64,000 nucleotides of DNA, from positions 10,275,501 to 10,339,500 of the forward strand of contig NZ_CP086136.1 of the NCBI RefSeq assembly GCF_017565645.3. Direction: 5' to 3'. The notes beneath the pieces were generated by a model. That model saw only the letters and a program-made list of their open reading frames with translations, searched no databases and had not been told where the DNA came from. Every line of letters begins with the position of its first letter. Positions within the stretch are counted from its first letter, which is position 1. Shown here in pieces: positions 21,391 to 26,482 of the stretch. Origin of the DNA: Bradyrhizobium barranii subsp. barranii. Lineage in GTDB: Bacteria; Pseudomonadota; Alphaproteobacteria; Rhizobiales; Xanthobacteraceae. The position numbers were made by a program, and so were the translations under genes.

Positions 21391-24300
21391 TCACTCCTTG
21401 CGACCGGACAGCTGCTCTTTCAGCGCAGCAAGCTTTGCGAAGGGCGAGTTCGGATCGGCCGGACGATCGCGCTCGCGCGGGTTCGCGCTCGAGGCGTAGG
21501 GGCGCAGCGACGGCCCGCCCTGACGGTCGCGGCCCTTGTCGCGGTCACGACCGCGATTGTCGCGGCCCTTGTCGCGATCGCCGCCGAACTTGCCCTTGTT
21601 GCGATCGCGATCCTTGTTGTCGCGATCCTTGCCTTCGAAGCGGCGGTTCTTGTCGTCGCGCCCTTCCTGGCGCGGCGCGCCTTCGGCACCACCTTCGCGC
21701 GGCTTGCGGAAATCCTTTGCCCCATCCCTGCGATGACCGCCGCCGTGACGATGGCGCTCATTGCGCTTCTCGCCGTCGGCTGACGGCGCGGCCTCGCCTT
21801 CGGCGGGGGCGGCGCCAGCTTCGGCACCGGCCTGCTGCGGGCGCTGATTGTGGTGACGCTGATGGCGATGCCGCTCGTGGCGCGGCTTGCGATCGTCGTG
21901 ACGGCCGCCGGGACGCCAGACCTCGACGAGCTCGGGCTCGCCAGGCACAGCGGCAGCCTCGACCGGCGCGGCGGCATCGGCGGATGCAGCGGCTTCCGTT
22001 GCAGCGGCCCCGGCGGGAGCGGCTTCCACCGCCTCGGTGGGCGCAGCAGCCTCTTCCGCGGGCGGCGCGATGCCGGGGGCATCCTCGGGCGTGACGGGGG
22101 CATCAGGCGATGCTTCGAGCGCCGGCTCTTCATGCGCGGGCTCGTCGTGCTGCTCCATGCCGGGCGCGTCTTCGACGGTGACGGGCTCGGCGGCGGCTTC
22201 GATCGCGGTGTCCGCGCTTGCGGCGGCATCATCGGTCGCAGTCGGTTCAGTCGGAGCCTCTGCGCTTGCTTCGGCAGCCGGCGTCTCCGCGGCGGCAGCC
22301 ACCGGCTTCGGCGGCAGCGGCGCACGCTTCTCCATGCGATAGCCGAGCGCGCGCAACACCGAGGCGAAATCCTCGCCGGCCGAGCCGGTGAGCGAGGTCA
22401 TCGCCTGCGTCACCACAAAGCTGCGGCCGTCAAACGCGCCGGCGGGCTTTTCGCCGGGCGAGTTCTCGCGCCAGGCCAGCGCCGGGCGGATCAGATCGGC
22501 AAGGCGCTCCAGGATGTCGACGCGCACGGCGCGCTCGCCGGCCTGCTTGTAGCCGAGCACGCGATACGCATCGCGCGGCAGCTGCTTGTCGACCGGGAAC
22601 GAGGTGCGGCCCGAAGATGCCAGATGCTGCGCGCCCGACAGCGAGGACAGATCGACATTGTCCTGCTTCAGCGCCCACAGCAGTGCGGCCAGCGCGCGTC
22701 CGGCGGGCTTGAGCAGGCCGGGGAAATAGATGTGATAGGCGCCGAAACGGACGCCGTATTTGCGCAACACGGCACGCGAGGGCTGGTCGAGATCCTTCAG
22801 CTCGTTCGCAATCTTCGGCCGTTCGAGCACGCCGAGCGCCTCGACCAGCTGATAGGCGATGCCGCGGGCAATGCCGGTGACGTCCTCGGCCTTCGAGAGC
22901 TCGAACATCGGCCCGAGCAGCTTTTCGATATGCGTCTTGAGCCAGAGCTCGAGCCGGGCCTGCACCTTCTCACGCGGCGCACCGGTGAGGCGCTCGTCGG
23001 AGATGATGCGAATGCGCGGATGCAGCGCCTCCTCCGCGGCAGACAGGCGCGCCACGGCATCGCCGGTCCAACGGATCGTGCCTTCCGAGGTCAGCACGAA
23101 CTGATCGTCCGGCGCATTGCCCAGTTTTTCGGCGCGCGCGTTGATCTCGCCGGCGAGCACCGCTTGCGCTGCAGCCTGCAAGGCTTTCGCATCGGAGCCT
23201 GCTTCCGCCGCATCCGGTGCAAAGGTGAAGCCATCGAGGCGGCCGATGACATGGCCTTCGACGATGACTTCGCCGGTCTTGCCGATTTCAGTATTCAAGC
23301 TCGTGTTCTCCCGCAGGCGGCGCATCAATACACTGGTCCGGCGATCAACGAAACGCTCAGTCAAGCGTTCATGGAGCGCATCCGATAATTTATTTTCGAC
23401 CTCGCGGGCGATCCCCTGCCAGCGTTCGGGGTCTTTCAGCCAGTCCGGGCGGTTGGCGACGAAGGTCCAGGTGCGGATCTGAGCGATCCGGGCCGACAGC
23501 GTGTCGATGTCACCGTCGATACGGTCGGCCTGGTCCACCTGGGCCGCAAACCAGGAATCGGGGATGCAGCCCTTCTGCATCAGGAAGCCGTAGAGCGTGG
23601 TGACGAGCTCGGCATGGGCCGCCGGCGACAGTTTTCGGTAATCGGGGACCTGGCAGGCCTCCCACAGCCGTTCCACGGCCGCCTTGCCATGCGCGATATC
23701 GCGCACCTCGACGTCGCGGGCGGCGTGGTCGAGCACGCGCATGTCCTCGGCGATCGGCGCGCGCGTCAGAGCCTCATGGCCGGGCGACTGGTTCAGGGAC
23801 ACCTGGAGCGCGCCGAGCGAGGCGAAATCCAGCTTCGCATTGCGCCATTGCAGCATCTTCACGTTGTCGAAGGTGTGGTTCTGCAGCGCGTTGACGAGCT
23901 CGGGCTCGAACGGCCCGCAGCGGCCCGTCGTCCCGAAAGTACCGTTGCGGGTGGCGCGGCCCGCACGCCCGGCGATCTGCGCGAATTCGGCCGGCGTCAG
24001 GCGGCGGAACTGGTAGCCGTCGAACTTGCGGTCCGAGGCGAAGGCGACGTGGTCGACGTCGAGATTGAGGCCCATGCCGACGGCGTCGGTGGCGACGAGG
24101 TAGTCGACGTCGCCGTTCTGGAACATCTCCACCTGCGCATTGCGCGTGCGGGGCGACAGCGATCCCAGCACCACGGCCGCGCCGCCATGCTGGCGGCGGA
24201 TCAGCTCGGCGATGGCGTAGACCTCATCTGCCGAGAAGGCGACGATGGCGGTGCGCCGCGGCTGGCGCGTGATCTTGCGGTCGCCGGCGAATTCCAGCTG

Positions 24301-24780
24301 CGACAGGCGCGGCCGCGTGATCATGGACACGCCGGGCAGCAGCCGCTCGATGATCGGGCGCATCGTGGCCGCGCCCAACAGCAGCGTCTCGTCGCGGCCG
24401 CGGCGGTTGAGGATGCGGTCGGTGAAGACGTGGCCGCGCTCCAGGTCAGACGCGATCTGGACCTCGTCGACGGCAAGGAAGGAGACGTCGAGATCGCGCG
24501 GCATCGCCTCGACGGTCGAGACCCAATAGCGCGGGTTCTTCGGCTTGATCTTCTCTTCGCCCGTGATCAGCGCGACGGCCTCGCTGCCGACCCGTGCGGC
24601 GATCTTGTTATAGACCTCGCGCGCGAGCAGCCGCAGCGGCAGCCCGATCACGCCAGAGGGATGCGCGAGCATCCGCTCGATGGCGAGATGGGTCTTGCCG
24701 GTGTTGGTCGGCCCGAGCACTGCAGTGACGCCCGCGCCGGGTGCGCGCTCGGAGGCGAAGGGGGAGGAGGAGAAGGCCAT
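21391..24780 (-). CDS. Suv3-like DEAD/DEVQ helicase with long disordered tail
   Basis: 1129 residues. Walker A GPTNTGKT lies at 23-30, the DEVQ motif is in FLAVDEVQIASDLERGH, the SAT-equivalent is LLLGAATMRP, and motif VI is QIAGRAGRATRNG. These match the Suv3/MPH1-type RNA helicase family found in alphaproteobacteria. Beyond residue ~800 the sequence turns low-complexity: Ala/Glu-rich, then a WRPGG element, then a charged R/D/K/G-rich part (DRDKGRDNRGRDRDKGRDR) that looks like a disordered RNA-binding tail. The role is probably RNA turnover or ribosome metabolism, fitting the coupled S4 gene. It is the first gene of the minus-strand run helicase-S4-fdxA-carD. Confidence 0.9.
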   Translation of the reverse strand: MAFSSSPFASERAPGAGVTAVLGPTNTGKTHLAIERMLAHPSGVIGLPLRLLAREVYNKIAARVGSEAVALITGEEKIKPKNPRYWVSTVEAMPRDLDVSFLAVDEVQIASDLERGHVFTDRILNRRGRDETLLLGAATMRPIIERLLPGVSMITRPRLSQLEFAGDRKITRQPRRTAIVAFSADEVYAIAELIRRQHGGAAVVLGSLSPRTRNAQVEMFQNGDVDYLVATDAVGMGLNLDVDHVAFASDRKFDGYQFRRLTPAEFAQIAGRAGRATRNGTFGTTGRCGPFEPELVNALQNHTFDNVKMLQWRNAKLDFASLGALQVSLNQSPGHEALTRAPIAEDMRVLDHAARDVEVRDIAHGKAAVERLWEACQVPDYRKLSPAAHAELVTTLYGFLMQKGCIPDSWFAAQVDQADRIDGDIDTLSARIAQIRTWTFVANRPDWLKDPERWQGIAREVENKLSDALHERLTERFVDRRTSVLMRRLRENTSLNTEIGKTGEVIVEGHVIGRLDGFTFAPDAAEAGSDAKALQAAAQAVLAGEINARAEKLGNAPDDQFVLTSEGTIRWTGDAVARLSAAEEALHPRIRIISDERLTGAPREKVQARLELWLKTHIEKLLGPMFELSKAEDVTGIARGIAYQLVEALGVLERPKIANELKDLDQPSRAVLRKYGVRFGAYHIYFPGLLKPAGRALAALLWALKQDNVDLSSLSGAQHLASSGRTSFPVDKQLPRDAYRVLGYKQAGERAVRVDILERLADLIRPALAWRENSPGEKPAGAFDGRSFVVTQAMTSLTGSAGEDFASVLRALGYRMEKRAPLPPKPVAAAAETPAAEASAEAPTEPTATDDAAASADTAIEAAAEPVTVEDAPGMEQHDEPAHEEPALEASPDAPVTPEDAPGIAPPAEEAAAPTEAVEAAPAGAAATEAAASADAAAPVEAAAVPGEPELVEVWRPGGRHDDRKPRHERHRHQRHHNQRPQQAGAEAGAAPAEGEAAPSADGEKRNERHRHGGGHRRDGAKDFRKPREGGAEGAPRQEGRDDKNRRFEGKDRDNKDRDRNKGKFGGDRDKGRDNRGRDRDKGRDRQGGPSLRPYASSANPRERDRPADPNSPFAKLAALKEQLSGRKE

Positions 24781-24897
24781 GTCTGGGGATTAGGTAGTGG
24801 CGATTTGGGCGAATGTCAGTGCTGCTTTGGGGTGTGTTGAGGGCTGGGAGGTGTCGGCCATGTCTCCGAACGCTACGCTGCAGCCAAGCATTCCGCT

Positions 24898-24999
24898 GTC
24901 ATGCCCCGGCTTGCCCGGGGCATCCAGTACGCCGCGGCCTGTCCGCTCAACCACAACGGCCTCGGCGTACTGGATCGCCCGGTCAAGCCGGGCGATGAC
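24898..24999. repeat. Palindromic intergenic repeat (GTCATGCCCCGGCTTG family), copy 1
   Basis: Begins GTCATGCCCCGGCTTGCCCG and ends CGGTCAAGCCGGGCGATGAC, with inner CCAGTACGCCG and CGGCGTACTGGAT also inverted. Copies at 26671-26772, 46726-46843 and 62917-63019. It lies 117 bases upstream of the helicase start. Confidence 0.85.
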
Positions 25000-25085
25000 A
25001 CCGAGAGTGTGGGAGCGCGCTCCCCAAACCTCGCGCAACTGTCTCACTTTGCGACGCTTTTCCCGTTGGCTTTAAGCTTCGGAAC

Positions 25086-25284
25086 GACTCTAGAACGAAT
25101 CGCGGCCGAATCGCTGACTCCCGCTGAAGCCTGTTCCGTTCACGCCACATGTCGCGGGACTCTTATTGGTTGTGCACTAGATGGAGTTTTGCCCTGCCGC
25201 ACAAGCGGCGTTTCGATCACCGGTTCCTTAAAATTGGGGACGGCGCGGAGTCGAATCAGAATCGCGGAGGAGTCAAATGGATTC
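25086..25284. promoter_or_regulatory. Dense cluster of ten GANTC (CcrM) sites
   Basis: GANTC occurs at 25086, 25097, 25108, 25116, 25158, 25248, 25253, 25259, 25270 and 25280, ten sites in 199 bases, where base composition would give about one. GANTC is the target of the alphaproteobacterial cell-cycle methyltransferase CcrM. No gene is recognised under the cluster except the small candidate frame at 25277. It may be a methylation-sensitive control region. It sits in the 24781-25585 gap. Confidence 0.6.
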
Positions 25285-25381
25285 CCGGGATCACGACCCC
25301 CAAACTCATTTTCGCGAAAACAACCCCATGCACAGTAGCCAAACCATTGAAATAACTAGACCTCTTAAACCGCGAAAATGA
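25277..25381 (+). CDS. Candidate small protein (34 residues)
   Basis: An ATG at 25277 follows a strong GGAGGAG with suitable spacing and opens a 34-codon frame ending TGA at 25379-25381 (MDSRDHDPQTHFRENNP onward). The Shine-Dalgarno is the main evidence; the composition is hydrophilic and no family is recognised. It begins inside the GANTC cluster. Confidence 0.35.
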   Translation: MDSRDHDPQTHFRENNPMHSSQTIEITRPLKPRK

Positions 25382-25414
25382 CGGATCGCAGCCCGTCTGA
25401 TGCGGCGCGCTTCT

Positions 25415-25575
25415 CACCCTCCCCTGGAGGGGGAGGGTCGCGGGCATGGAGCGAAGCGAAATGCGCAGCGGGGTGGGGTGATCTCTCCCCTCGAACAGTG
25501 CCCGCATGGAGAGATCACCCCACCCCGCTCGCGCTGCGCGCGATCGACCCTCCCCCTCCATCCAGGGGAGGGTGG
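25415..25575. repeat. Long hairpin repeat (CACCCTCCCC family)
   Basis: The left arm CACCCTCCCCTGGAGGGGGA and the right arm CCCTCCCCCTCCATCCAGGG are near-complementary, as are the inner GGGTGGGGTGATCTCTCC and GGAGAGATCACCCCACCCC, so almost the whole 160 bases fold back. A relative with another loop is at 33531-33688. It lies just before the DUF3108 stop. Confidence 0.8.
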
Positions 25576-25585
25576 GCAGCGGCGC

Positions 25586-26482
25586 CTACTGCGTCTTGGC
25601 GACCTTTGGCGGCTGGGCTGAGGTGATGAAGCTGGTCGCTTCCAGCATGGCCGGGCCGAGCGGCGTCGGCACTTTCAGCCAGAACGGGACCAGGATGCGC
25701 GTGCCCGCGACGGGGGCGAAGGCGATCTCGATGTTGCGCTGGGCGGCGAGGTATTTGATCACGGGACGGTCGGGAATGTAGCCCGCCACGGGCACGAAAT
25801 AGAGCGCGCAGACCACCACCGGGCCCCTGTAGCCCTTCTCCGCCTTCACGCTCTCCATGCGCTTGAAATCGAGTTTCAGCTCGTAGCGCATGCGGCCGTC
25901 GAACACGGGTGCTGCGTTGTGGCAGGCGTCCGGCGTCACGGGGTCGCCGGTGCCGGGCACGCGCAGCAGCGAGGCCGTCATCGGATCCCAGACGCCGCGG
26001 CGATGCGCATCGGTGACGACGATGCGGTCGGCATCGACCGGCGGCTCCGGCACGATGCCGAACTCCTTCACATTGCCCTTGTCGAGCGTGATGCGGATCT
26101 CTTCGGTCTTCTTCGAGGTGGTGGTGGAGGCCTGGTAGCCGGTCGCGACCAGCGCGCCGTTGACCACCCTACCTTGCGAGGCGCCGGTGCCGGACCCGCC
26201 CGCGAACGATTTCAGCAGCCCCGTGGTGCCGCCGGAGGCCGCGGCCGCGAACACGTCGTCGCCGATGTCGATGTTCCAGGCGCCCTTGCCGACGGGAATG
26301 CCCGCCAGCGTCGCCTCATACTGGGCCTCGAGCTTGCCCTGCGCCGCGACGGGCTCCGCCCCCCACGCCACCACGAGCCCGCAAAGGGCCGCGAAGGCCA
26401 GCCGGCCGGCAGAGCGCGGACTGACTGAGCCGTGACTGACAAAGCCTTGGAGCCAAAGTCGGGGGGATGTGAGCACGAACAA
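25586..26482 (-). CDS. DUF3108-type exported protein
   Basis: 298 residues with a signal sequence (LAFAALCGLVVAWGAEPVAAQ, about residues 28-48). The mature part starts GKLEAQYEATLAGIPVGKGA and holds RYELKLDFKR and YFVPVAGYIPDRP, as in the DUF3108 family of periplasmic beta-rich proteins. The role is unknown. The N-terminus before residue 28 is long; an inner start would give a shorter signal peptide. It is followed on its 3' side by the long hairpin repeat at 25415-25575 and is divergent from rpmB. Confidence 0.78.
   Translation of the reverse strand: MFVLTSPRLWLQGFVSHGSVSPRSAGRLAFAALCGLVVAWGAEPVAAQGKLEAQYEATLAGIPVGKGAWNIDIGDDVFAAAASGGTTGLLKSFAGGSGTGASQGRVVNGALVATGYQASTTTSKKTEEIRITLDKGNVKEFGIVPEPPVDADRIVVTDAHRRGVWDPMTASLLRVPGTGDPVTPDACHNAAPVFDGRMRYELKLDFKRMESVKAEKGYRGPVVVCALYFVPVAGYIPDRPVIKYLAAQRNIEIAFAPVAGTRILVPFWLKVPTPLGPAMLEATSFITSAQPPKVAKTQ

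Follow-up and report, generated by a model that had tools for sequence, protein, structure and literature searches.

Why should an intergenic region of Bradyrhizobium barranii subsp. barranii hold ten copies of GANTC, the motif methylated by CcrM, within 199 bases? The question was raised by a first-pass annotation of the window, by which we mean the whole stretch of 64,000 nucleotides that was analyzed. All ten sites were confirmed between positions 25086 and 25284 (starts in Table 1), and the expectation of about 0.7 sites put forward in the annotation proved right as well, with the composition of the 199 bases giving 0.74 and a Poisson probability for at least ten sites of ~7e-9. GANTC is scarce across the window, occurring 99 times vs 336 times in dinucleotide shuffles, and the runner-up 199-bp count within the window is four. 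A sliding count over a chromosome sample of 80 stretches of 20 kb each (1,600,000 bases; 2962 GANTC, i.e., 1.85 per kb) yielded six sites in its top 199-bp window vs ten in the element. Thus, no equal peak was found in the 1.6 Mb sampled and the window, an outlier status that refers to the window and ~14% of the genome, with three smaller contigs outside the sample. The element holds three GANTC triplets spaced 10-12 and 10-12 bp; the 1.6-Mb chromosome sample holds none.

Anatomy of the element

The limits of the unit, termed element A, were set as listed in Table 1 because most full-length genus matches end at query positions 245-250. Within it, six GANTC sites are invariant in 22 diverse copies from the genus, except for the middle base of the first one (C or G), and in the right-hand row the sites at 25248, 25253, and 25270 are unchanged in all 22 diverse genus rows. 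Over all rows, the commonest spacings between neighboring GANTC sites are 11, 8, and 10 bp.

Table 1. Features of the window around the GANTC cluster (GANTC start positions in parentheses)
Feature	Position	Strand	Remarks
Suv3-like helicase gene	21391..24780	-	Pfam DEXQc_Suv3 5e-23; constant neighbor, divergent from element
Conserved non-coding element A	25040..25284	+	reads away from helicase gene; genus matches
LexA-type direct repeat GAAC-N7-GAACGAA	25082..25099	+	GAAC 37 and 38 of 38 rows
Four GANTC phased by 11, 11, 8 bp (25086, 25097, 25108, 25116)	25086..25120	+	
Inverted half-site GTTC	25138..25141	+	36/38 rows
Isolated fifth GANTC (25158)	25158..25162	+	variable among genus rows
Right-hand GANTC row (25248, 25253, 25259, 25270, 25280)	25248..25284	+	
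DUF3108 gene	25586..26482	-	Pfam DUF3108 2e-23; neighbor genus-wide, not order-wide

The consensus core reads GGAAC-N7-GAACRAA-N7-CGAATCgcTGACTC, then TTYGTTC, with GATTC often after CGAATCgcTGACTC, a CTANAT-like block after TTYGTTC, TTAA often in front of the core, and the inverted GTTC ~40 bp beyond GAAC-N7-GAACRAA. Among 38 rows, which were found with a pattern containing GAAC, the third GANTC site is kept in 38, the fourth in 31, the first in 20, and the second in 15. For the rows from named genomes and, partly, for A4 and A5, the locating pattern contained GAAC, CGAATC, and TGACTC; because rows were located in this manner, the constancy of the core is overstated. Freer of this bias are the loci chosen by their helicase, the counts of control motifs outside the core, and the profile matches examined. 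The latter comprise 32 matches, picked by hand from 43 at helicase-chosen loci, and they carry CGAATC in 32 cases and GAAC-N7-GAAC in 24.

The surroundings of the element were inspected as well. A ~28-bp repeat with the core AACAACCCCATGCACAGTAG occupies window positions 25313-25340 and, in most rows from close members of the genus, comes after the element; at least 39 further copies exist in the genome (40 matches scored of 72 candidates, window included), one of them within the parS cluster (G000:C1:264341-264372). Two large inverted repeats flank the element at 24894-25003 and 25408-25581, featuring 46-base arms that are 85% complementary and nested arms around 25408-25581. The spacing on either side of the element differs among relatives.

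Selection for GANTC, taxonomic spread, and helicase anchoring

For the evaluation of GANTC against motifs of the same composition, we counted a zone of 161 bp to the right of the core, using seven palindromes of equal composition as controls. On order level, 19 thinned genomes from 28 reached through the helicase were considered (nine were without a core at three mismatches or fewer), giving 62 GANTC sites vs 3-13 for the control motifs. The named genomes (n = 61) gave 158 vs 12-35 and the family (n = 17 genomes) 56 vs 2-16. Since GANTC lies ~5-20-fold above equal-composition motifs beside the core, GANTC itself is selected as a unit, and the control region proposed in the first-pass annotation is supported as real, conserved, and specific for GANTC. 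Its density is ~20 per kb beside the core vs 2 further off, and at more than 340 bp from the core it is the second rarest of the eight motifs (35; others 24-58). In six rows from other orders the excess is absent (6 vs 1-5 for controls); the core is therefore shared more widely, and enrichment in GANTC is a trait of this order. Thus, the sequence by itself reveals selection for methylation sites at one defined gene in many families, with LexA as a candidate second input to the element.

Within the genus, the query 25040-25312 found matches in 142 of 146 genomes (own included). All 57 genus loci examined, again counting the own one, show the element flanked by the helicase and DUF3108 genes, in a single orientation. 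Conservation in Bradyrhizobium, which the first-pass annotation proposed to check, extends to the site number, with at least eight GANTC around the element at each of 50 genus loci (30 with the own one included, plus 20). A sequence-only profile built from the 22 diverse genus copies alone (R1) matched 133 of 149 genomes and 44 of 47 genera of the family, and, counting the own genome and the family members, 114 of 199 genomes and 56 of 99 genera of the order. When a shorter profile (R2), trained on most of the loci searched for tandem copies, was applied to 190 genomes sampled from the class, 20 gave a match; three of these (own, G328, and G367) are members of the order, leaving 17 of 187 outside. 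The helicase adjoins the match in eight of nine out-of-order R2 loci fetched, and R1 matches were obtained at 3 of 29 helicase-chosen loci from other orders (L316, L330, and L313). The pattern scan of named genomes returned at least 119 stretches, of which 80 were examined, including Mesorhizobium, Rhizobium, Agrobacterium, Ensifer, Brucella/Ochrobactrum, Nitrobacter, Rhodopseudomonas, and Bosea; in these 80, the number of GANTC sites in the densest 199 bp around the match ranges from 2 to 11. In 467 kb of the own genome R2 found the element of the window and one 9-bit match (E 0.45), and a further 1.2 Mb gave no additional match. Element B is the sole other R2 match in the own genome.

The location between a helicase and a DUF3108 gene, as described in the first-pass annotation, held for the former neighbor, which adjoins the element at 76 of the 80 named loci examined (of at least 119), and not for the latter, present at 35 of the 80. 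At the other four loci, ~0.4 kb or less separates the match from that end of the locus where the helicase would be expected. The best solved relatives of the helicase are Suv3/SUPV3L1 (mitochondrial SUV3/SUPV3L1), and no NCBIfam cut-off was passed. It was found in 60 of 61 genomes of the order; of 58 genomes sampled from the class, 43 gave a match, in some cases a weak one. The locus thereby draws attention to a little-studied bacterial relative of mitochondrial SUV3. Among the best-scoring 30 helicase-chosen loci of the order, R1 matched upstream of the helicase in 24, with no match upstream at L297 and L303-L307. R2 matched the same 24 loci, 14 of them with two or three copies on one strand; four of the loci searched for tandem copies also had weak overlapping matches on the opposite strand. 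The second and third copies are often without one GAAC and retain CGAATC, and a GAAC half-site is also lost in some out-of-order copies (L316, L330). Among the genus rows listed, a promoter-like stretch lies immediately before the helicase ATG. At the order loci L293, L288, L296, and L282, the module stands three times in tandem upstream of the helicase.

LexA-type half-sites and the methylation system

The direct repeat may link the element to the SOS response. GTTC-N7-GTTC is given as the SOS box of Caulobacter in the available text of two reports (PMC12700426, PMC6237742), and the GAAC-N7-GAAC of the element is the same box on the opposite strand. The own lexA has one GAAC-N7-GAAC upstream, on the lexA coding strand. 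Since the repeat of the element sits on the strand reading away from the helicase, a divergent transcript would suit it. Over the order loci, the distance to the helicase match varies between 35 and 765 bp, so that the repeat appears ill-suited as an operator on the helicase promoter. The extended motif TTYGTTC-N7-GTTC occurs at 19 genome sites, elements A and B among them, vs four for the reversed control. Because the genes next to LexA boxes gave no clear SOS gene (6 of 10 scanned proteins had a Pfam match), lexA itself was used as the reference. Compared with it, the element shows a GACTCTA centre and a GAACGAA flank vs an A+T-richer centre and a GAACATA flank. Half-site and spacing are the same as in alphaproteobacterial LexA operators; unlike these, the repeats of the elements often have a G+C-rich N7 centre, are set among GANTC sites, are distant from the helicase start, and occur in tandem. 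LexA is a putative binder of the element.

On the methylation side, a CcrM-type methylase with a RAMA domain was present in all 21 genomes checked, own included. In 10 of these 21 the element was undetected; with the methylase in all 21, the presence of the element shows no contrast with that of the methylase. In cultured B. diazoefficiens, 99.76% of GANTC motifs were found to be methylated, according to the accessible part of PMC4840208. The GcrA motif, given as YGAKTCK in the available portion of PMC7987155, is fitted by the invariant CGAATCG of the third site on the helicase strand, pointing towards the helicase. Over the 19 genomes this fit amounts to 32 of 46 sites in the core, a value set by the fixed CGAATCG, 17 of 62 beside the core, and 16 of 79 in the background. 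In Brucella abortus, lexA and uvrA are among the targets listed for GcrA ChIP, with GANTC enriched 4.4-4.7-fold in the peaks (PMC6813329, as far as its text was available). The element resembles promoters under GcrA/CcrM control in Caulobacter, Brevundimonas, and Brucella in carrying GANTC in a control region, and YGAKTCK fits its third site without being favored beside the core; it differs from them in fusing up to four phased GANTC to GAAC-N7-GAAC. GcrA is a candidate for binding. Another comparable system, repABC/ori2 of Agrobacterium tumefaciens, contains nine GANTC, and control by hemimethylation was proposed for this module (PMC11514494, available sections). Like the element, it has several GANTC in promoter and intergenic regions; it is, in contrast, a replication module with other neighbors, and those sections describe no GAAC array.

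Readings of the element

The LexA-type repeat, the anchoring at the helicase, and the order-wide spread are additions beyond the first-pass annotation. A published description of the element was not found in the literature listings and text passages searched. Our preferred reading, offered tentatively and with a rough probability of 0.45, is that element A is a DNA-level module in which a LexA-type operator is joined to an array of CcrM sites. It would be a control element of double-stranded DNA rather than a gene, anchored upstream of the Suv3-like helicase. LexA, or a protein sharing its half-site, would bind the GAAC repeats. This binding, or the recruitment of GcrA with RNA polymerase, may be tuned by CcrM through methylation of adenines on one helix face. 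The element may then change its state upon hemimethylation after passage of the replication fork, and upon DNA damage. Its likely output would be the helicase gene, a divergent transcript that starts within the element or next to it, or both of these. The data show the anatomy, the conservation, and the selection for GANTC as a unit, from which we infer LexA binding, methylation state, and target transcript. Several findings stand against this module, namely the 10 of 21 methylase-bearing genomes without a detected element, the missing GAAC in second and third tandem as well as some out-of-order copies, the variable helicase distance, the G+C-rich N7 centre unlike the lexA operator, the absence of a GANTC excess outside the order, and the GcrA motif being unenriched beside the core. 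The element may serve as a compact reporter for testing whether the cell reads DNA damage and methylation state jointly.

The same observations could also be accommodated by a CcrM/GcrA-controlled region in which the GAAC repeats bind another regulator of 11-bp repeats, e.g., a response regulator, with no role for the SOS response. Direct repeats of 11 bp suit response regulators as well, the GANTC enrichment is specific, the N7 centres are unlike the lexA operator, and TTAA often precedes the core; since half-site, spacing, and RAA flank nevertheless agree with the LexA repeat in front of the own lexA, we regard this reading as somewhat unlikely.

Within the LexA/CcrM module, the one-face rows of GANTC could gate the LexA-type operator, rendering the element a hemimethylation-sensing switch, a proposal that we rate as unlikely. 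If true, damage control at the locus would depend on the replication state, providing an alphaproteobacterial counterpart of Dam/SeqA logic that the order would have conserved next to a Suv3-like helicase. In the Dam/SeqA system of Gammaproteobacteria, methylation sites lie about one helical turn apart. The element differs in using GANTC in place of GATC and SeqA, and its sites are likewise spaced by about one turn.

That the element might be the promoter or body of an unstructured small RNA, reading away from the helicase and sometimes repeated in tandem, strikes us as improbable. The same-strand tandem copies at 14 of the 24 element-bearing order loci, the paralogue B elsewhere in the genus, and the CTANAT block after GTTC, which we take to resemble the rhizobial -10 consensus, would fit such a role; against it, no Rfam family reached its gathering score in the window or at 14 order loci, and no terminator pattern was seen by eye in four folded tandem loci. 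With an E-value threshold, the two inverted repeats beside the element gave nothing but microRNA-like Rfam matches, all below the gathering score. The start of a small RNA had been one suggestion of the first-pass annotation, and for a structured one covariation support was lacking. As far as covariation shows, a structured RNA is unsupported, since 4 of 31 consensus pairs had a two-sided change, 3 of these being broken in 5-6 of 22 rows. A second fold had five pairs, one of them with a two-sided change, the support for both folds coming almost wholly from invariant pairs. Pairing within the own row was no better than between swapped rows (99 rows), with 3788, 4480, 1965, and 4601 of 5000 row-swap permutations scoring as low, vs 31 and 855 of 5000 for control pairs. 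Likewise unsupported is a gene for a small protein at 25277. Of 30 close rows, 29 preserve the ATG of this frame, whose Shine-Dalgarno sequence was pointed out earlier, and AAATGGATTC stands there in 6 of 22 diverse genus rows, the start thus not being kept beyond close relatives.

A site for chromosome maintenance, acting in hemimethylation sensing, segregation, or replication control and not in transcription control, is very improbable in our assessment. The phasing of the methylation sites is reminiscent of hemimethylated pairs bound in the manner of SeqA, and the locus lies on an origin arm, ~6% of the chromosome from parS; the constant link to one gene and the tandem copies, all beside the helicase, argue against such a site, which is also not oriC. 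The earlier idea of a replication-linked site fails as far as the origin itself is concerned, the skew switch and parS being located ~656 kb away. The GC skew, mostly negative as far as 235-255 kb, changes sign at about 255-275 kb and is positive from 275 kb on. The six parS-like sites cluster there (263.8-266.6 kb), at the distance given if contig C1 is circular. A chance cluster or functionless remnant, conceivable in a neighborhood rich in dispersed repeats, has next to no probability, being contradicted by the conservation over genus, family, and order and by the Poisson value.

Element B represents a paralogue of the left part, found at eight genus loci and accompanied there by a small-protein gene (8/8), a glutathione S-transferase gene (7/8), and a cupin gene (5/8). 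The own copy (G000:C1:8409123-8409245, L106) lies near small-protein and glutathione S-transferase genes and carries the GAAC-N7-GAAC repeat together with just two GANTC.
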